DNA from: Chloroflexota bacterium
GTDB taxonomy: Bacteria; Chloroflexota; Ktedonobacteria; Ktedonobacterales; Ktedonobacteraceae
Reading direction: 5' to 3'
Assembly: GCA_902812455.1 (NCBI GenBank)
Contig: CADDZH010000126.1
Span: 1-14,083, forward strand
Length of the DNA: 14,083 nucleotides
Below the pieces are notes generated by a model. It was not told the DNA's origin, ran no database searches, and worked only from the letters and a program-made list of their open reading frames with translations. Position 1 is the first letter of the stretch; every line of letters starts with the position of its first letter. Below, in pieces: positions 1,601-12,444 of this stretch. The translations under genes and the position numbers were made by a program.

Positions 1601-1630
1601 CAGGACAGGGACAAGCCCTGTCCCTACCCT
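1601..1630. repeat. REP-like palindrome, complete copy
   Basis: A perfect 8-bp stem GGACAGGG/CCCTGTCC (1603-1610 with 1616-1623) encloses the loop ACAAG (1611-1615). It is followed by CTAC (1624-1627), which is GTAG on the opposite strand. An outer A1602-T1625 pair closes it with C1624 bulged, the same base layout as in the smc copies. No T-run follows, so it is not a typical intrinsic terminator. It lies about 70-100 bp before the smc start. Confidence 0.75.
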
Positions 1631-1700: not shown

Positions 1701-4700
1701 GTGTATCTCAAACGCCTGGAAATGCTGGGTTTTAAGAGCTTTGCCACGCGCACTGTCCTGGAGTTCAGTCCAGGCATTACGGCTGTGGTAGGGCCGAACG
1801 GCGCGGGGAAATCAAACGTTGCCGACGCCATACGCTGGGTGCTGGGTGAGCAGAGCATGCGCCAGTTGCGTGGGAAGAAAAGCGACGATATTATTTTTGC
1901 CGGCGCTCATGGTAAGTCCCCACTTGGTATGGCTGAGGTTTCGCTCACCCTCGATAATAGCACGAGCTGGATGCCTTCAGAATATAGCGAGATTACGGTC
2001 ACGCGACGCAGCTATCGTTCAGGAGAAAACGAATACCTGATCAATAAACAGAGAGTGCGCCTGAAAGATGTGATCCTGCTGCTGGCCCAGGCGCGTATTG
2101 GCCATGATTCATATACCGTTATCGGCCAGGGCCTCGTCGATGCTGCCCTGAGCCTGCGCGCTGAAGAACGCCGCGGCCTGCTTGAAGATGCTGCCGGGAT
2201 ACGCCCGTTCCAGGTGCAGCGTGCGGAGGCAGAGAGTCGCCTTCGCCAGACCGAACAGAACCTGGAGCGCCTGCGCGATATTGTGGCCGAGATTGAACCG
2301 CGCCTGGCTCCACTAGAGGAACAGGCCCGCAAGGCGCTTGAGTTCAAAGAAGTGGATAGTGAGTTGCAGGAGGTGTTGACGGCATGGTATGCCTTGCAAT
2401 GGAGGCGCTTACGTGCGGCAAGGGATCAGGCAGAGGCGACAGAGCAAGAACAGGCGCAGAAGGTGCGCCAGGTGGAACAGTTCCTGCAAACTGCCGGCGA
2501 GCAGGGAAATATGCTACGCCAGAAGCGGCAGAACATCTATAGCCATATTGCAGAAGCGCGCAAAGCATGGAACCAGGCCAATGATGCTGTGCAGCGCCTG
2601 GAGCGCGAGCTGGCTGTCAGCGAGGAGCGCATTAGCGGTTTAGCGCGGCAGAGAGGCGAGCAGCAGCAGGAAGAGCAACGCTTGCGAGAGCGCCTCATCT
2701 CGATCCAGCAGCAGATCATTGACCAGGAAGAGCAATGCGCCCTTGCTGATGAAGCGGTGGCTAGTGAGGCTGCGGCCCTTGCAGCATTTGAGGCACAGGT
2801 AGCCCAGGCGCAACAAGATTATGAGGTGGAAGAACGCCGCCTGCGCGCCGTGCAAAGCGATCTCTTCCAGGTGCAGGCGCGTTTAGGGGCCAGCCAGGCT
2901 GACCTGGGACGGCAGCAAAAGCACCTGGGCGAGCGGAATAAGACGCTGGCAGCCCGGCGAGAGGCCATAGCCCAGGCAGAACAATCATTGCGTGCCCTGA
3001 ACGCCCGCCTGGCGGAAGAACGCTCTCGCCTGGATACTGTACACAGTGAAGAGCAGCAGGTTACACAACGTAAACAGGCGCTGGCACGTGTCATCTCGGA
3101 TGCACAGCAGGAAAGCGAGCGCTTGAAATCCCTGCTGGCCGATGCGGAGCGGCAGCGCCGCCTGGTTTCTGATCGCTTGAATATGCTGAAGAACTGGCGG
3201 CAAAGCCTGAGCGGTTACAGCGATGGGGTACGTGCGCTCTTGCGTACAGGTGCAAAGACAGAGCAAGCGCCAGGATTCGTGGGGCCAGTTCCCCAGCTCG
3301 GCGTTGCTCCAGCCGGCATGGAGAGCGCGCTGGAGGCTGCGCTTGGACCGTATTTGCAAGCGGTCGTGGTACATACGCTCGATGATGCTTATGCTTGCCT
3401 GGTGTATTTGCGTGAAAAGAAAGCGGGAAAGGCCATGATCGCCTGGATGGAAGAAGGGCGTGATGGCTCTGCATTGGATGATATTGAAGATGCCGGGTAT
3501 CAACAGGAGGAAGATGCCCTGGCTTGCTACCTGGCAGGAAGGCCTTCTTTGAAGGATCGCGTTGTGGGCTTTGCCTGGCAGCATATCGAGTGCGAGCCTC
3601 GCTACCTGCCGCTTTTCCATAGAATGCTGCGGGGCGTTGTAATTGCGCGCGATGGAGAAACTGCGCGAGAACTGATAGCCTCTGCGGAGGCAGATAGAGC
3701 TTCTGCTGCGCCTGAACCTCCTTTTCAGATGGTGGTTACGCTTGATGGAGAGGTTTTCCACACGTCCGGCTGGCTCGCGGGTGGGAGCGCGAAAGCAGGC
3801 AATCAACAGGGCTTGCTGGCCTACGAGCGAGAACTGCGTGAATTACCCAGGCAACTCGATGAGCATATTGCTTTGATAGACCAGTTCAATAGCATGATCA
3901 GCGAGATACAGCGAGCCCAGGAAGGACGGCGCGCAGAGCTGGCTACCATTGATAAAGAATTGCAGAAGATCACCGGCCGCATCAACGAATTGAACAGAAA
4001 CGTGACAACGACGCAGCGAGAACAGGAGCGCGTGCAAGCGGAACTGCGTCTTGCCACCTCGGTTGAGCAGCAGCTAGCGGCTGAGGTAGCCGGACTGGCG
4101 CAGGAGCTTGAAGCGGCTCAGGAGCGGGTGCGCGCACATGAGAAGTCACAGCGAGAGCTGGCGGGCCTGGTAGAGGAACTTCAACGACGAGTAGAGGAGC
4201 ATTCTAGCATATATCGCCGCCAGCAGGATGAGCTTGGCCGCAAACGAACTGCCCTGGCAGTAAAGCGGCAGGAGGCTCGTTCCCTGCCCCAGCAACTGGC
4301 GATACAGCAGGCGCAGGCGCAGGAATTGCAATCGCAGCTTGATCAACAGGCAGCGCGAATGAAAGAGGCGGAAGAGAAACAGCAGGCCCTGCAGGAGAGC
4401 ATAGCAAGTCAACGCAAGGAACTTGCGGCAGCACAAACACGGGCACAAGAGCTTGCGGCTGACTTGAGCACGGTAGAAGAAGAGGCCAGGGAGGTCGATC
4501 GCGAGATCGCCACGCTGGAACAGCGCTCGATACAATTGCGCAACACCATGAGCGAGGTCGAGGCTGCGTACCGCCGTTGCCTTTTAGAGAGCCAGAAGGC
4601 CCAGGACGCCCTTGAATCGCTATTGACGCAACTCCAGGAGGAAATGGGCATCAAGGCCAGGGCGATGGCAAGCATAGCCCCTACCCTTGACGTTGATGCT

Positions 4701-5540
4701 GGAAGCGAAGAGGTCAGGGCAATGGCAAGCATAGCCCCTACCCTTGACGTTGATGTCGGCACCAGATTTTCGGTAGAATCTGCATCTCGCGAAACGCCAG
4801 AAACGTTATCGGAAGAAGACGAGACTCAATTGCGCAAACTGCGCCGGCGCGTCGATGCCTTGAGAAGTCGTCTCAGAGCGCTGGGAGGGTGCGATCCCGA
4901 TGCTCCTCAACAGTACGAGGAGACGCGCACTCGCTTTGAATTTCTCACGACTCAGATCGCTGACATGGAGCAGGCAGCGTTGCACCTGCGTTCGATCATC
5001 GGACAACTTGACGCCACGATGGCACGGCAATTCGAGATGACGTTCCAGGCGGTCAATACCCGTTTCCGCGAGCATTTCATCACACTCTTCAATGGTGGCA
5101 ATGCTCGCCTGGAACTGACGGCACTCAAGGCAGACGAGGATGAAGAAGGGAATGGTTCAACCCCATCCAGCAACATGCCTGTAGGCGTGGAGATCATTGT
5201 GCAGCCACCGGGGAAGAAGGCCCAGGATCTCTCGTTGCTCTCAGGCGGCGAGCGAGCGCTGGTTTCTGCGGCGCTTCTCTTTGCCCTGTTGGAGATTAAC
5301 CCGCCGCCGTTCTGCCTGCTTGACGAGGTTGATGCCGCTCTCGATGAATCAAATCTGGCCCGCTTCTGTGATATCTTGAAACGATTGGCCGAGCGCACGC
5401 AGTTCATCGTTATTACCCACAACCGGCTAACGATGGCCGAAGCCCAGGTTATTTACGGCATCTCGATGGGGAGTGATAGCGTCTCCCGTGTGATCTCCAT
5501 GAAGCTCGATGACCTGCCTGTGGGCGTTGGAGGTCACTGA
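1701..5540 (+). CDS. smc: Chromosome segregation ATPase SMC, with in-frame palindromic repeat insertions
   Basis: SMC dimers form ATP-driven rings that, with ScpA and ScpB, extrude DNA loops and organise the nucleoid. The protein has 1279 residues, longer than the roughly 1190 usual in bacteria. The N-terminal head has Walker A GPNGAGKS at 31-38. A coiled coil runs from about 170 to 500, and the hinge from about 505 to 700 with LAGGSAKAG near its end. The second coil runs from about 710 to 1080. The C-terminal head has the signature LSGGER at 1180-1185 and Walker B CLLDE ending at D1208/E1209. The start is GTG, with AGGTGGAG about 8 bp upstream. Residues 987-999 and 1006-1018 are the same 13-residue peptide, RAMASIAPTLDVD, encoded by tandem 45-bp DNA repeats. 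These fall between LQEEMGI and the LRALGG segment, where the family has a helix junction near the joint. The stop overlaps the end of the convergent small gene by 7 bp. Confidence 0.97.
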   Translation: MYLKRLEMLGFKSFATRTVLEFSPGITAVVGPNGAGKSNVADAIRWVLGEQSMRQLRGKKSDDIIFAGAHGKSPLGMAEVSLTLDNSTSWMPSEYSEITVTRRSYRSGENEYLINKQRVRLKDVILLLAQARIGHDSYTVIGQGLVDAALSLRAEERRGLLEDAAGIRPFQVQRAEAESRLRQTEQNLERLRDIVAEIEPRLAPLEEQARKALEFKEVDSELQEVLTAWYALQWRRLRAARDQAEATEQEQAQKVRQVEQFLQTAGEQGNMLRQKRQNIYSHIAEARKAWNQANDAVQRLERELAVSEERISGLARQRGEQQQEEQRLRERLISIQQQIIDQEEQCALADEAVASEAAALAAFEAQVAQAQQDYEVEERRLRAVQSDLFQVQARLGASQADLGRQQKHLGERNKTLAARREAIAQAEQSLRALNARLAEERSRLDTVHSEEQQVTQRKQALARVISDAQQESERLKSLLADAERQRRLVSDRLNMLKNWRQSLSGYSDGVRALLRTGAKTEQAPGFVGPVPQLGVAPAGMESALEAALGPYLQAVVVHTLDDAYACLVYLREKKAGKAMIAWMEEGRDGSALDDIEDAGYQQEEDALACYLAGRPSLKDRVVGFAWQHIECEPRYLPLFHRMLRGVVIARDGETARELIASAEADRASAAPEPPFQMVVTLDGEVFHTSGWLAGGSAKAGNQQGLLAYERELRELPRQLDEHIALIDQFNSMISEIQRAQEGRRAELATIDKELQKITGRINELNRNVTTTQREQERVQAELRLATSVEQQLAAEVAGLAQELEAAQERVRAHEKSQRELAGLVEELQRRVEEHSSIYRRQQDELGRKRTALAVKRQEARSLPQQLAIQQAQAQELQSQLDQQAARMKEAEEKQQALQESIASQRKELAAAQTRAQELAADLSTVEEEAREVDREIATLEQRSIQLRNTMSEVEAAYRRCLLESQKAQDALESLLTQLQEEMGIKARAMASIAPTLDVDAGSEEVRAMASIAPTLDVDVGTRFSVESASRETPETLSEEDETQLRKLRRRVDALRSRLRALGGCDPDAPQQYEETRTRFEFLTTQIADMEQAALHLRSIIGQLDATMARQFEMTFQAVNTRFREHFITLFNGGNARLELTALKADEDEEGNGSTPSSNMPVGVEIIVQPPGKKAQDLSLLSGGERALVSAALLFALLEINPPPFCLLDEVDAALDESNLARFCDILKRLAERTQFIVITHNRLTMAEAQVIYGISMGSDSVSRVISMKLDDLPVGVGGH
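4654..4755 (+). repeat. Tandem in-frame REP-like repeats inside smc
   Basis: Two 45-bp units (4654-4698 and 4711-4755) are identical at 43 positions and offset by 57 bp, exactly 19 codons. Each contains a hairpin of the window-wide family. In copy 1, GGGC (4660-4663) pairs with GCCC (4677-4680) and ATG (4665-4667) with CAT (4673-4675), around the loop GCAAG (4668-4672). CTAC follows at 4681-4684. Copy 2 has the same hairpin at 4716-4739. Compared with the copy at 1601, several stem pairs differ but remain paired, so these are repeat-family members and not chance similarity. They encode residues 987-999 and 1006-1018 of SMC. Confidence 0.8.
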
Positions 5541-8933: not shown

Positions 8934-8962
8934 CCTGGCCCCCACAAGGGAGGCCACTACAT
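8934..8962. repeat. REP-like palindrome, copy A of an identical 29-bp pair
   Basis: TGGCC (8936-8940) pairs with GGCCA (8952-8956). A C-A mismatch and a CC/GG pair lead to the loop ACAAG (8944-8948). CTAC follows at 8957-8960. Loop, stem length and tail match the other family members although the stem bases differ. Copy B at 9003-9031 is identical over 29 bp. Confidence 0.75.
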
Positions 8963-8965
8963 TTT

Positions 8966-9066
8966 ACTAGTACTGCGTCAATGTTCATGTGATCGATGGA
9001 TGCCTGGCCCCCACAAGGGAGGCCACTACATCTCACCAGTCACATGAAGCTTGACGCAGTACTAGT
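8966..9066. mobile_element. 101-bp inverted-repeat element enclosing a REP copy (MITE-like)
   Basis: The left arm (8966-8992) and right arm (9040-9066) are 27-bp inverted repeats matching at 25 positions. The outer 16 bp, starting ACTAGTACTGCGTCAA, match perfectly. The 47-bp interior contains REP-like copy B. I see no transposase and no clear target duplication at the borders, so mobility is inferred from structure alone. The arms may instead be regulator sites. Confidence 0.5.
9003..9031. repeat. REP-like palindrome, copy B of an identical 29-bp pair
   Basis: Identical over 29 bp to 8934-8962 and offset by 69 bp in the same orientation. It forms the same hairpin with loop ACAAG and tail CTAC (9026-9029). 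It sits between the arms of the 27-bp inverted repeat. Confidence 0.75.
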
Positions 9067-10469: not shown

Positions 10470-10572
10470 TTTGACAACCGAAACAGGGAATAAGGAGCTC
10501 CCTCTCGTGGAATCCCGGGCAGGACAGGCACAAGGCACTGTCCCTACAGCCTTTCCTCATTCGGTTGTCAAA
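10470..10572. mobile_element. 103-bp segment with 13-bp perfect inverted repeats enclosing a REP copy
   Basis: TTTGACAACCGAA (10470-10482) is repeated inverted at 10560-10572 without mismatch. The 77-bp interior contains the REP-like hairpin at 10521-10547. Size and layout match the segment at 8966-9066 although the arm sequences differ. There is no transposase, and mobility is inferred from structure. Confidence 0.45.
10520..10547. repeat. REP-like palindrome with one bulge
   Basis: GGACAG (10522-10527) pairs with CTGTCC (10538-10543) and GC (10528-10529) with GC (10535-10536), around the loop ACAAG (10530-10534). A10537 is bulged and CTAC follows at 10544-10547. It differs from the copy at 1601 by a G-C to C-G swap at the pair next to the loop, so pairing is conserved. 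Confidence 0.7.
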
Positions 10573-10973: not shown

Positions 10974-12179
10974 CTAAACGTGTTGAGACGTATTGATTAC
11001 GGTGAAAACAGCCGCACACCGCGTAGCATCGGCTACGTGTGGCCCTAGCCGGGCAAAGTACCGGGAAAGGATATTGATCGCGCTGTTCTCATCTCGATCA
11101 AGCACCAATCCACACTCGGTACACATATACGTCCGCTTGTAGAGGGGCATGGGCTGTACATGCCCACAGCCTGAACAAGCCTTTGACGTATTTCTCTCAT
11201 CTAGGAATACCAGTTCTTTCCCCTTGAGCACACATTTGTAGACCAGCATCTGGACAAAGCCGTAGAGTCCCCACTCATTGAGCACGGCTCGGTTCAGGTG
11301 CTTATTCCGTTCCTGATGCGCTTTCATGACCATCTGCCGTTGGGAAAGATCACCGATGACAACAGTTCTCTCAACCAGTTTGCCAGCGATGAGATGCGAT
11401 GCTTTATGCAGACAGTCCTTTTGCTTGCGCCGTTTCTTCTCGGAAACGCGCTTGTAGACTCGACTCAGGTAGAGATAGCGCCGGGACTTCTTCTTGCACT
11501 TGTCCCTCTTCGAGCGAATCTTGTCGAGTTGTTTATTGTACCAACGAGCGCCTTTGAAACCGCCTACATGATAGACCTTGCCCTGTTCATTCATGCCCGT
11601 TGCAAGCGTCTTGATCCCCAGATCAAACGCCACAACTGCTCCGGCTTGCCGTTCCTGTTCCTGCGCTCGGTAGCTGAATGAGGCGTAGTAGTTGCCCCGT
11701 GCATCTCTGGAGATGGCAACCTCACGGAAACCAGCCGGTGGCTGTTCGGTGAGGCGTGCCATGATATTCGGGAAGCGCTTGTGTTTGCCCTTGCTACCCG
11801 TTGGCAGGATGAGAACGTTCCCCATGATCTTGAGGTACATGGCGGGATAGCAGAGGGTGAAAAAGTTATGGCGCGGGCGCACACGAGGAAAGCCTGGCTT
11901 CTCTCCTGCGAGCACTCGCCGGAAAAAGGCTTGCATGGCATTGTCCAGGCGATAGAACACCTCATGTAAGAGCTTGCCATAGACCCAATCGAGTTCAGGA
12001 TCATACTGCTTGCTCTCTTGCAACGTCTTCTTTGCCATATAGACGCCTGGCCATTGCTCACTGTTCCGCAGGCGCATGACCCACCAGTTGTAGAGGCCGC
12101 GACACTTGGCCTGCATGAACTCAAGCGCCTCTGCCTCTTCCTTGGTGACTTCAAGCCTGATCTTTTTGGTCAGCAGCAT
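10974..12179 (-). CDS. tnpB: TnpB RNA-guided nuclease with a shifted RuvC-II glutamate
   Basis: TnpB proteins are RNA-guided DNA nucleases of IS200/IS605 and IS607 elements that cut donor sites and help the element persist. This one has 401 residues, typical for the family. RuvC-I is VVAFDLGIKTLATG with D186. RuvC-II reads RTVVIGDLSQ, with Gly276 where the canonical catalytic Glu sits. The zinc finger has C335, C338, C353 and C356. RuvC-III is LDRDENSAINI (360-370) with D361/D363. E328 in FLDERNTSKACSGCG, 52 residues after G276, fits the alternative glutamate described for rearranged TnpB and Fanzor proteins. The ATG at 12179 begins MLLTKKIRLEV. The frame is open further upstream, but that part is out of frame with the small RHH-like gene and lacks family similarity. 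It overlaps that gene by 29 bp and probably depends on its promoter. Confidence 0.92.
   Translation of the reverse strand: MLLTKKIRLEVTKEEAEALEFMQAKCRGLYNWWVMRLRNSEQWPGVYMAKKTLQESKQYDPELDWVYGKLLHEVFYRLDNAMQAFFRRVLAGEKPGFPRVRPRHNFFTLCYPAMYLKIMGNVLILPTGSKGKHKRFPNIMARLTEQPPAGFREVAISRDARGNYYASFSYRAQEQERQAGAVVAFDLGIKTLATGMNEQGKVYHVGGFKGARWYNKQLDKIRSKRDKCKKKSRRYLYLSRVYKRVSEKKRRKQKDCLHKASHLIAGKLVERTVVIGDLSQRQMVMKAHQERNKHLNRAVLNEWGLYGFVQMLVYKCVLKGKELVFLDERNTSKACSGCGHVQPMPLYKRTYMCTECGLVLDRDENSAINILSRYFARLGPHVADATRCAAVFTVINTSQHV
10975..11045 (-). ncRNA. Candidate omega-RNA scaffold at the tnpB 3' end
   Basis: TnpB guide RNAs usually overlap the last part of tnpB and run past its stop. Here a hairpin CACAC(cgc)GTAGC / GCTACGTGTG (11015-11041, four-base loop) lies 39 bp before the stop. 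A smaller GGTGA/CAGCC-type hairpin with a four-base loop follows. The exact limits and the guide boundary cannot be set from one copy. Confidence 0.3.
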
Positions 12180-12339
12180 TGCGCTTGTCTCCTTCCCGTT
12201 GCAAGCGTTGCAGTTCTTGCCGGACCAGCTCATCCAGAAGCTCAAGGCCACGCTTTCCAGCAAGAGCAGCGGCAATGCGTAGGTTCCGCTGTGTTGTGCG
12301 TAGGACACGCATATGCGCATATCTCTCTTTGTCTTCCAT
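12151..12339 (-). CDS. Ribbon-helix-helix-like small protein coupled to tnpB
   Basis: A 62-residue basic protein. Residues 9-19 could form a beta strand (HMRVLRTTQRN). Helix A follows (NLRIAAALAG), then the turn KRG and helix B (LELLDELVRQELQRLQ). This is the pattern of the ribbon-helix-helix (Arc/CopG-like) DNA-binding fold, ending in a charged tail. A role as regulator of the element or as antitoxin-like accessory is inference. The last 29 bp overlap the start of tnpB in another frame, which suggests translational coupling. The ATG at 12337-12339 has no ribosome site. A near-consensus promoter places its expected start point on the A of this ATG, so the transcript is probably leaderless. 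A later ATG (12312, residue 10) also lacks a good ribosome site. A 12-bp perfect palindrome, ATATGCGCATAT (12311-12322), lies inside the gene and could be an autoregulatory site. Confidence 0.65.
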   Translation of the reverse strand: MEDKERYAHMRVLRTTQRNLRIAAALAGKRGLELLDELVRQELQRLQREGDKRNAADQKDQA

Positions 12340-12345
12340 GCATCA

Positions 12346-12374
12346 ATTGTATCGCATGGGTTACGAAGAGTCAA
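12346..12374 (-). promoter_or_regulatory. Strong sigma-70 type promoter for the RHH-tnpB pair
   Basis: On the minus strand TTGACT (12374-12369, 5/6) and TACAAT (12351-12346, 5/6) are spaced by exactly 17 bp. Six bases separate the -10 from the ATG of the small gene, so transcription should begin at or next to that A, giving a leaderless message. Confidence 0.7.
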
Positions 12375-12376
12375 GC

Positions 12377-12444
12377 AGGAGCAAGATGCTTGAAAAGCAC
12401 ATGTTTGAACACGTTTTCGTACATTTTCAAGCATTGTTGCTCCT
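12377..12444. repeat. Long stem-loop at the 5' side of the TnpB element
   Basis: AGGAGCAA (12377-12384) and ATGCTTGAAAA (12386-12396) pair with TTTTCAAGCAT (12424-12434) and TTGCTCCT (12437-12444). This gives 19 base pairs with one small internal bulge and a 27-nt loop. It begins 3 bp upstream of the -35 box. It could be the left-end structure recognised by a trans-acting TnpA, or a transcription barrier. Confidence 0.6.

Follow-up and report, generated by a model that had tools for sequence, protein, structure and literature searches.

GTAG-tagged REP-like palindromes lie twice, in frame, in a variable linker of a Ktedonobacteria smc gene

The smc gene of a Ktedonobacteria contig contains a 45-bp palindromic unit that is present twice, in the same orientation and in the reading frame of the gene. 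Both units have the anatomy of a GTAG-tagged REP, and the best explanation, to which we assign a probability of about 0.78, is that a REP-type palindrome of this class entered smc in frame, that the 45-bp unit now lies there twice and that it has been kept at a tolerant linker. The contig, analysed over its whole length of 14,083 bases and referred to below as the window, carries the following features:

1701..5540, plus strand: smc, chromosome partition protein, 1279 aa (open reading frame with Pfam SMC_N and SMC_hinge)
4653..4805, plus strand: SMC variable linker (residues 985-1035) with both units inside (homolog comparison and model)
4654..4698, plus strand: unit 1, in-frame palindromic insert encoding RAMASIAPTLDVD (repeat comparison, pattern count and frame check)
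4711..4755, plus strand: unit 2, second copy of the palindromic insert, in frame and oriented like unit 1, with 43/45 bases identical
4658..4684, minus strand: GTAG-tagged REP-like hairpin core of unit 1, whose minus strand begins GTAG
4715..4741, minus strand: GTAG-tagged REP-like hairpin core of unit 2
1603..1627, minus strand: GTAG-tagged hairpin lying between genes upstream of smc; its stem is 8/8 paired and the tail of the units follows it
10522..10547, minus strand: further intergenic GTAG-tagged hairpin, weaker, with a 6 bp stem and a loop of 10

Two palindromic units in the smc reading frame

The smc reading frame is open across 1279 codons despite both units, and its product has SMC_N (E 2.9e-68) and SMC_hinge (E 1.1e-17) domains. 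A sequence-only reading of this DNA had described two 45-bp units, 57 bp apart in the smc frame and each encoding RAMASIAPTLDVD, and their positions, identity and frame were verified. The units share 96% identity with two differing positions and a start-to-start distance of 57 bp; within the part coding for RAMASIAPTLDVD the sole difference is synonymous. Unit length and spacing are both divisible by three, and of the three forward frames that of smc alone is stop-free in both units, so that predicted translation continues through the inserts. The borders of the units are sharp, with identity breaking off abruptly at either end, and the bases common to both extend past the REP tail (GTTGATG).

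It is a real possibility, which we place somewhat below even odds, that a REP inserted only once and that a piece of 45-57 bp was then duplicated locally, the second copy being ordinary repeat expansion; this fits the preferred reading except for the word 'twice'. The shared orientation and the extension of identity past the REP tail in both copies favour such a duplication, whereas the 12-bp spacer is not repeated after unit 2 and both borders are sharp, unlike a simple 57-bp tandem duplication.

Each unit contains an imperfect hairpin, CAGGGC-RATG-GCAAG-CATA-GCCCCTACC, which on the minus strand reads GTAG-GGGCTATG-CTTGC-CATYGCCCTG with 7/8 stem pairs and a loop of 5. GTAG-tagged REPs are recognised by a hairpin of 20-40 bp that carries an unpaired GTAG at one terminus, and the smc units have this structure. 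The family hairpin named in the sequence-only reading is present in the units, with an imperfect stem. The intergenic relative at 1597-1641 is only 62% similar to the smc units, though it has the tail CCCTACCCTKGACG in common with them. The core pattern CAGGGC-N{6,24}-GCCCCTACC, which was derived from these units, occurs twice in the window, both times in the smc units, and in none of 200 dinucleotide shuffles. Other GTAG hairpins on the contig number two, against a mean of 0.5 and a maximum of 3 in 60 simulated sequences. As RNA, the smc hairpins were no more stable than shuffled sequences (z 0.28 and -1.05).

Pairing was also analysed across 11 REP sequences of equal length, two of them from the window, that had been chosen by fixed ends. 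The 8-pair helix reached 89.8% pairing. In 8 cells both sides of the stem had changed, by comparison with 0-3 when the helix was slid, and stem positions 9-17 and 10-16 covary; the four outer stem pairs are invariant and uninformative because the sequences were chosen by their ends. Two of the five pair measures for these sequences were not above shuffles (161/500 shuffles reached the double-change pair count and 375/500 the count of pair types). In Rfam, no family reached its gathering score.

Elsewhere in the window, at 8934-9040, a palindrome that reads GTAGTGGCCTCCCTTGTGGGGGCCAGG on the minus strand is present as two direct copies of 38 nt (92%), accompanied by an inverted repeat of 27 nt with arms at 8966-8992 and 9040-9066.

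The linker in SMC homologs and in structure models

A search for SMC homologs gave 298 matches, of which 120 were listed, including the window. Those that carry an organism name are labelled Ktedonobacteraceae, Ktedonobacter or Chloroflexi; the reference genus Thermogemmatispora belongs to the Ktedonobacteria. In these the variable linker is the segment between LQEEMG-like and LSEEEE-like motifs. The insert peptide was found in the window alone (1/120) and in none of the other 119 listed homologs, including the sister sequences P0006 and P0034, whose linkers lack it; a tree of 36 taxa built with the linker removed groups the window with these two against 33 others (UFBoot 91). The sequence-only reading had proposed aligning SMC orthologs from close relatives to see whether the segment is absent or varies in copy number, and had named as refuting evidence a peptide pair kept in distant relatives that lack the palindrome; no such pair occurred among the 119. 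The units accordingly behave as a translated in-frame palindrome, absent from orthologs and with the frame kept, translation here being predicted. Outside the linker, the closest of the listed SMCs shares 74% identity with the window, and a near-identical smc allele without the insert was not found.

The window linker has 51 residues by comparison with a median of 36 (20-62) in 115 others. A DPxEL-like motif is present in 116/120 listed SMCs and was not found in the window, P0009, P0062 or P0101; it is truly lost only in the window and P0009, as P0062 and P0101 read NPGEL at this point. The longer linker together with the missing DPxEL indicates that sequence has been both gained and lost there. 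The inserts alone thus do not account for the length of 1279 residues, which the earlier suggestion was that they help to explain.

Among 112 SMCs the linker is the segment that varies most in length (sd 6.9), followed by a head loop and by hinge or hinge-adjacent segments (sd 2.3-4.9), with the remainder below 0.6; between the anchors, natural linker loops in the same set span 22-64 residues. The second most length-variable segment in these 112 SMCs is the head-domain loop at residues 1139-1159 (window 5115-5177), with a range of 32 residues.

In a structure model of the window protein, residues 983-1037 lie outside helices, mostly with pLDDT under 50, and the insert peptide is modelled in a disordered loop between helices. 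The model of an uninterrupted ortholog has a short helix where the window carries the insert, at low confidence (block pLDDT 62 and 48). The linker follows the C-terminal arm helix and precedes the final helices ahead of the head; it is probably the Smc joint. A PDB sequence search with the linker region returned no SMC joint match, and the position of the joint was therefore taken from numbering carried over from the match to the head, from helix order and from a profile alignment to 5xei, which is poor in the linker.

This position bears on whether the insert was selected, with a longer loop altering joint angle or flexibility, or mRNA hairpins tuning smc translation. In favour are the location near a joint of mechanical importance and the comparable inserts of other lineages (below), but we consider selection unlikely: the sister sequences do without the insert, loop length is little constrained and the RNA hairpins are of ordinary stability. 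Most likely the insert is tolerated, near-neutral baggage.

Related palindromes in Ktedonobacteria genomes

We searched 47 Ktedonobacteria genomes for relatives of the units. A single genome, G023, contains 10 copies of the hairpin CAGGGCGAGGGCAAGCCTCGCCCCTACC (control 0), which has 3 mismatches to the degenerate pattern and to unit 1 and 4 to unit 2; in loop, spacing and flank the smc units thus resemble this dispersed family at 24-25 of 28 positions. None of the 10 copies is inside an open frame that reaches 200 codons, although contig ends truncate some of the loci. The wider pattern CAGGGC-N-GCCCCTACC was found at 66 places in 20/47 genomes and its reverse at 12, and several of the 66 resemble lone chance matches within long open frames.

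The tail pattern SYCCCTACCMTKGACG occurs at 11 places in 4/47 genomes (control 1), after a hairpin in only 6 of them (five in G047 and one in G021); the four identical cases in G036 and the one in G004 are inside open frames and have no hairpin. The tail CCMTKGACG adjoins GTAG in the window copies and in some copies of G047 and G021.

The identical 45-bp unit was not found elsewhere in the 47 genomes or in the searched proteins. BLAST of the double unit against these genomes (best 18 candidates or fewer per genome) gave only short pieces of chance strength, the best covering 33/108 bases at 85%, and against plasmids gave six records, all from E. coli, covering 25% of the query at chance strength (E 0.9). 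A search for the insert peptide among proteins about 193-612 aa long scored 87 candidates, none of which had an E value of 10 or lower.

That no identical unit was found, and that homolog linkers vary freely, would suit a native linker that resembles a REP by chance, the repeat then being a duplication at the protein level within a disordered loop that evolves fast. The core pattern, however, was absent from all 200 shuffles, the dispersed G023 family matches the units in loop, spacing and flank, and two stem pairs covary, so that we regard a native origin as improbable. The absence of the insert from the 119 listed homologs, its dispersed relative in G023 and the modelled loop instead support the earlier claim of a protein-coding insertion at a coiled-coil break.

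Different palindromes are associated with the same linker in other lineages. The smc linker of G013 contains SLPLSRSVGEGQGWGP, encoded by a palindrome, CCCTCTCCCGC...GGGGAGGGGC, that differs from that of the window and was seen in the DNA; this smc reaches the end of its contig about 31 codons past the palindrome. The G013 family is present at 198 places in 5/47 genomes (six in G013, 100 in G014, 58 in G016, 33 in G017 and one in G018; control 0), and was absent from the smc loci of G014, G016 and G017.

The proteins P0002, P0003 and P0009, which form one clade (UFBoot 100), carry PVGAGLAPA in the linker, seen as protein sequence only, and a palindrome encoding VGAGLAPA occurs at 76 places with up to one mismatch in 8/47 genomes (control 5), with full matches at 23 of the 76. 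G045 holds 32 such palindromes, most of them starting GTAC instead of GTAG. With the P0009 linker as query, 105 candidates yielded a match to P0009 itself only. P0019, P0021 and P0027 have AQGIAPTMDG-like linker peptides, again at protein level, and the tail CCCCTACCATGGACG, which would encode PTMD, follows REP hairpins five times in G047; this case is weak because the back-translated pattern matches only those five places, at 3 mismatches.

For the window and G013 the palindrome was seen as DNA, and for P0002/P0003/P0009 and P0019/P0021/P0027 putative captures are proposed from their peptides; we infer that those in other lineages were independent. On balance we lean, by a small degree, towards the SMC joint linker of Ktedonobacteria being a recurrent natural landing site for unrelated translated palindromes. 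Four or more lineages, namely that of the window, G013, P0002/P0003/P0009 and P0019/P0021/P0027, would have taken up different REP-type elements at this linker, with DPxEL lost in the window and P0009, and dispersed repeats would repeatedly rebuild a mechanical element of the machinery that organises the chromosome.

Palindromes also occur in other genes: 12 open frames were listed and four were given to Pfam, three of which had domains and one none. An in-frame GTAG palindrome separates the CoA-binding and CoA-ligase domains of a frame in G021 (L110, 946-2613, minus strand), and in G045 a palindrome lies at residue 44 of an MgtE/CBS open frame.

Origin of the units and relation to known repeats

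Transposition is the presumed source of the units, which would make them mobile in nature. No direct repeat of 4-12 bases, the target-site duplication expected of a MITE or IS, was present within 4 bases of the unit ends, the true ends being uncertain. Ten proteins of the window were scanned and none had a Y1 transposase domain; Y1_Tnp domains occur in 41/47 genomes, RAYT and IS200/IS605 TnpA being pooled in this count. RAYT transposases are the proposed mobilisers of GTAG-tagged REPs, but a link between REPs and Y1 transposases found no support, with 10 REP-like matches at 30 Y1 loci against 18 in the reversed control. The window also encodes a TnpB/OrfB of IS605 type at 10974-12434 (minus strand), with OrfB_IS605 and Cas12f1-like TNB domains.

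The GTAG-23 repeats of T. roseum presumably represent the Chloroflexi case. They are clustered in blocks, unlike the window units (Di Nocera et al., 2013; PMC3733652). Passages of the same paper describe GTAG-tagged REPs as short hairpins with a terminal GTAG, mostly intergenic and sometimes intragenic, the latter often in DNA synthesis and repair genes and sometimes paired at close sites; in recB, X. campestris and X. oryzae carry different REPs at about one site. Head-tail pairs are under-represented according to these passages, whereas the smc units form such a pair. Rickettsia palindromic elements, also mentioned there, are likewise in-frame palindromes in frames likely to encode functional proteins, in another host. 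They had been invoked in the sequence-only reading as the precedent; the principle does have one, but the nearest found is instead the intragenic GTAG-tagged REPs (PMC3733652). In-frame REPs within genes having already been described, the principle is known, and smc and the Ktedonobacteria join the known cases. The terms 'smc' and 'Ktedonobacter' do not occur in the main text of PMC3733652, and no report of REPs in smc or of Ktedonobacter REPs was found in the open PMC literature; what would be new is recurrent capture at the SMC linker, which was not found in print.

In B. subtilis, as reported in passages of PMC5344682 and PMC5526789, a screen recovered viable 14-residue inserts in the SMC arm with hotspots at coiled-coil breaks and near the hinge, and arm length and integrity were needed except at such sites. 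Those inserts were laboratory-made, whereas that in the window smc is natural and repeat-derived. We propose that chance brought a REP-type palindrome of the GTAG-tagged class into the smc reading frame and that the 45-bp unit came to lie twice, in one orientation, in the linker, where its peptide would loop out and replace a segment that is helical in the model of the uninterrupted ortholog. A filter on arm integrity like that in B. subtilis would purge inserts elsewhere and spare those in the linker, and the insert may have been kept because the linker is one of the few arm sites where added flexible residues leave function intact; the same filter would explain the other palindromes there in relatives. 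Captured repeats may then be a natural counterpart of the B. subtilis screen, reporting where the SMC arm takes flexible additions, and natural loops of 22-64 residues offer test material for arm integrity and joint geometry. Dispersed palindromes could more generally be raw material for protein linkers.

An open frame of G047 (L116, 34-2523) joins aminotransferase class III and M20 peptidase domains with a GTAG hairpin between them, which would be either a fusion linker or a read-through of two genes.
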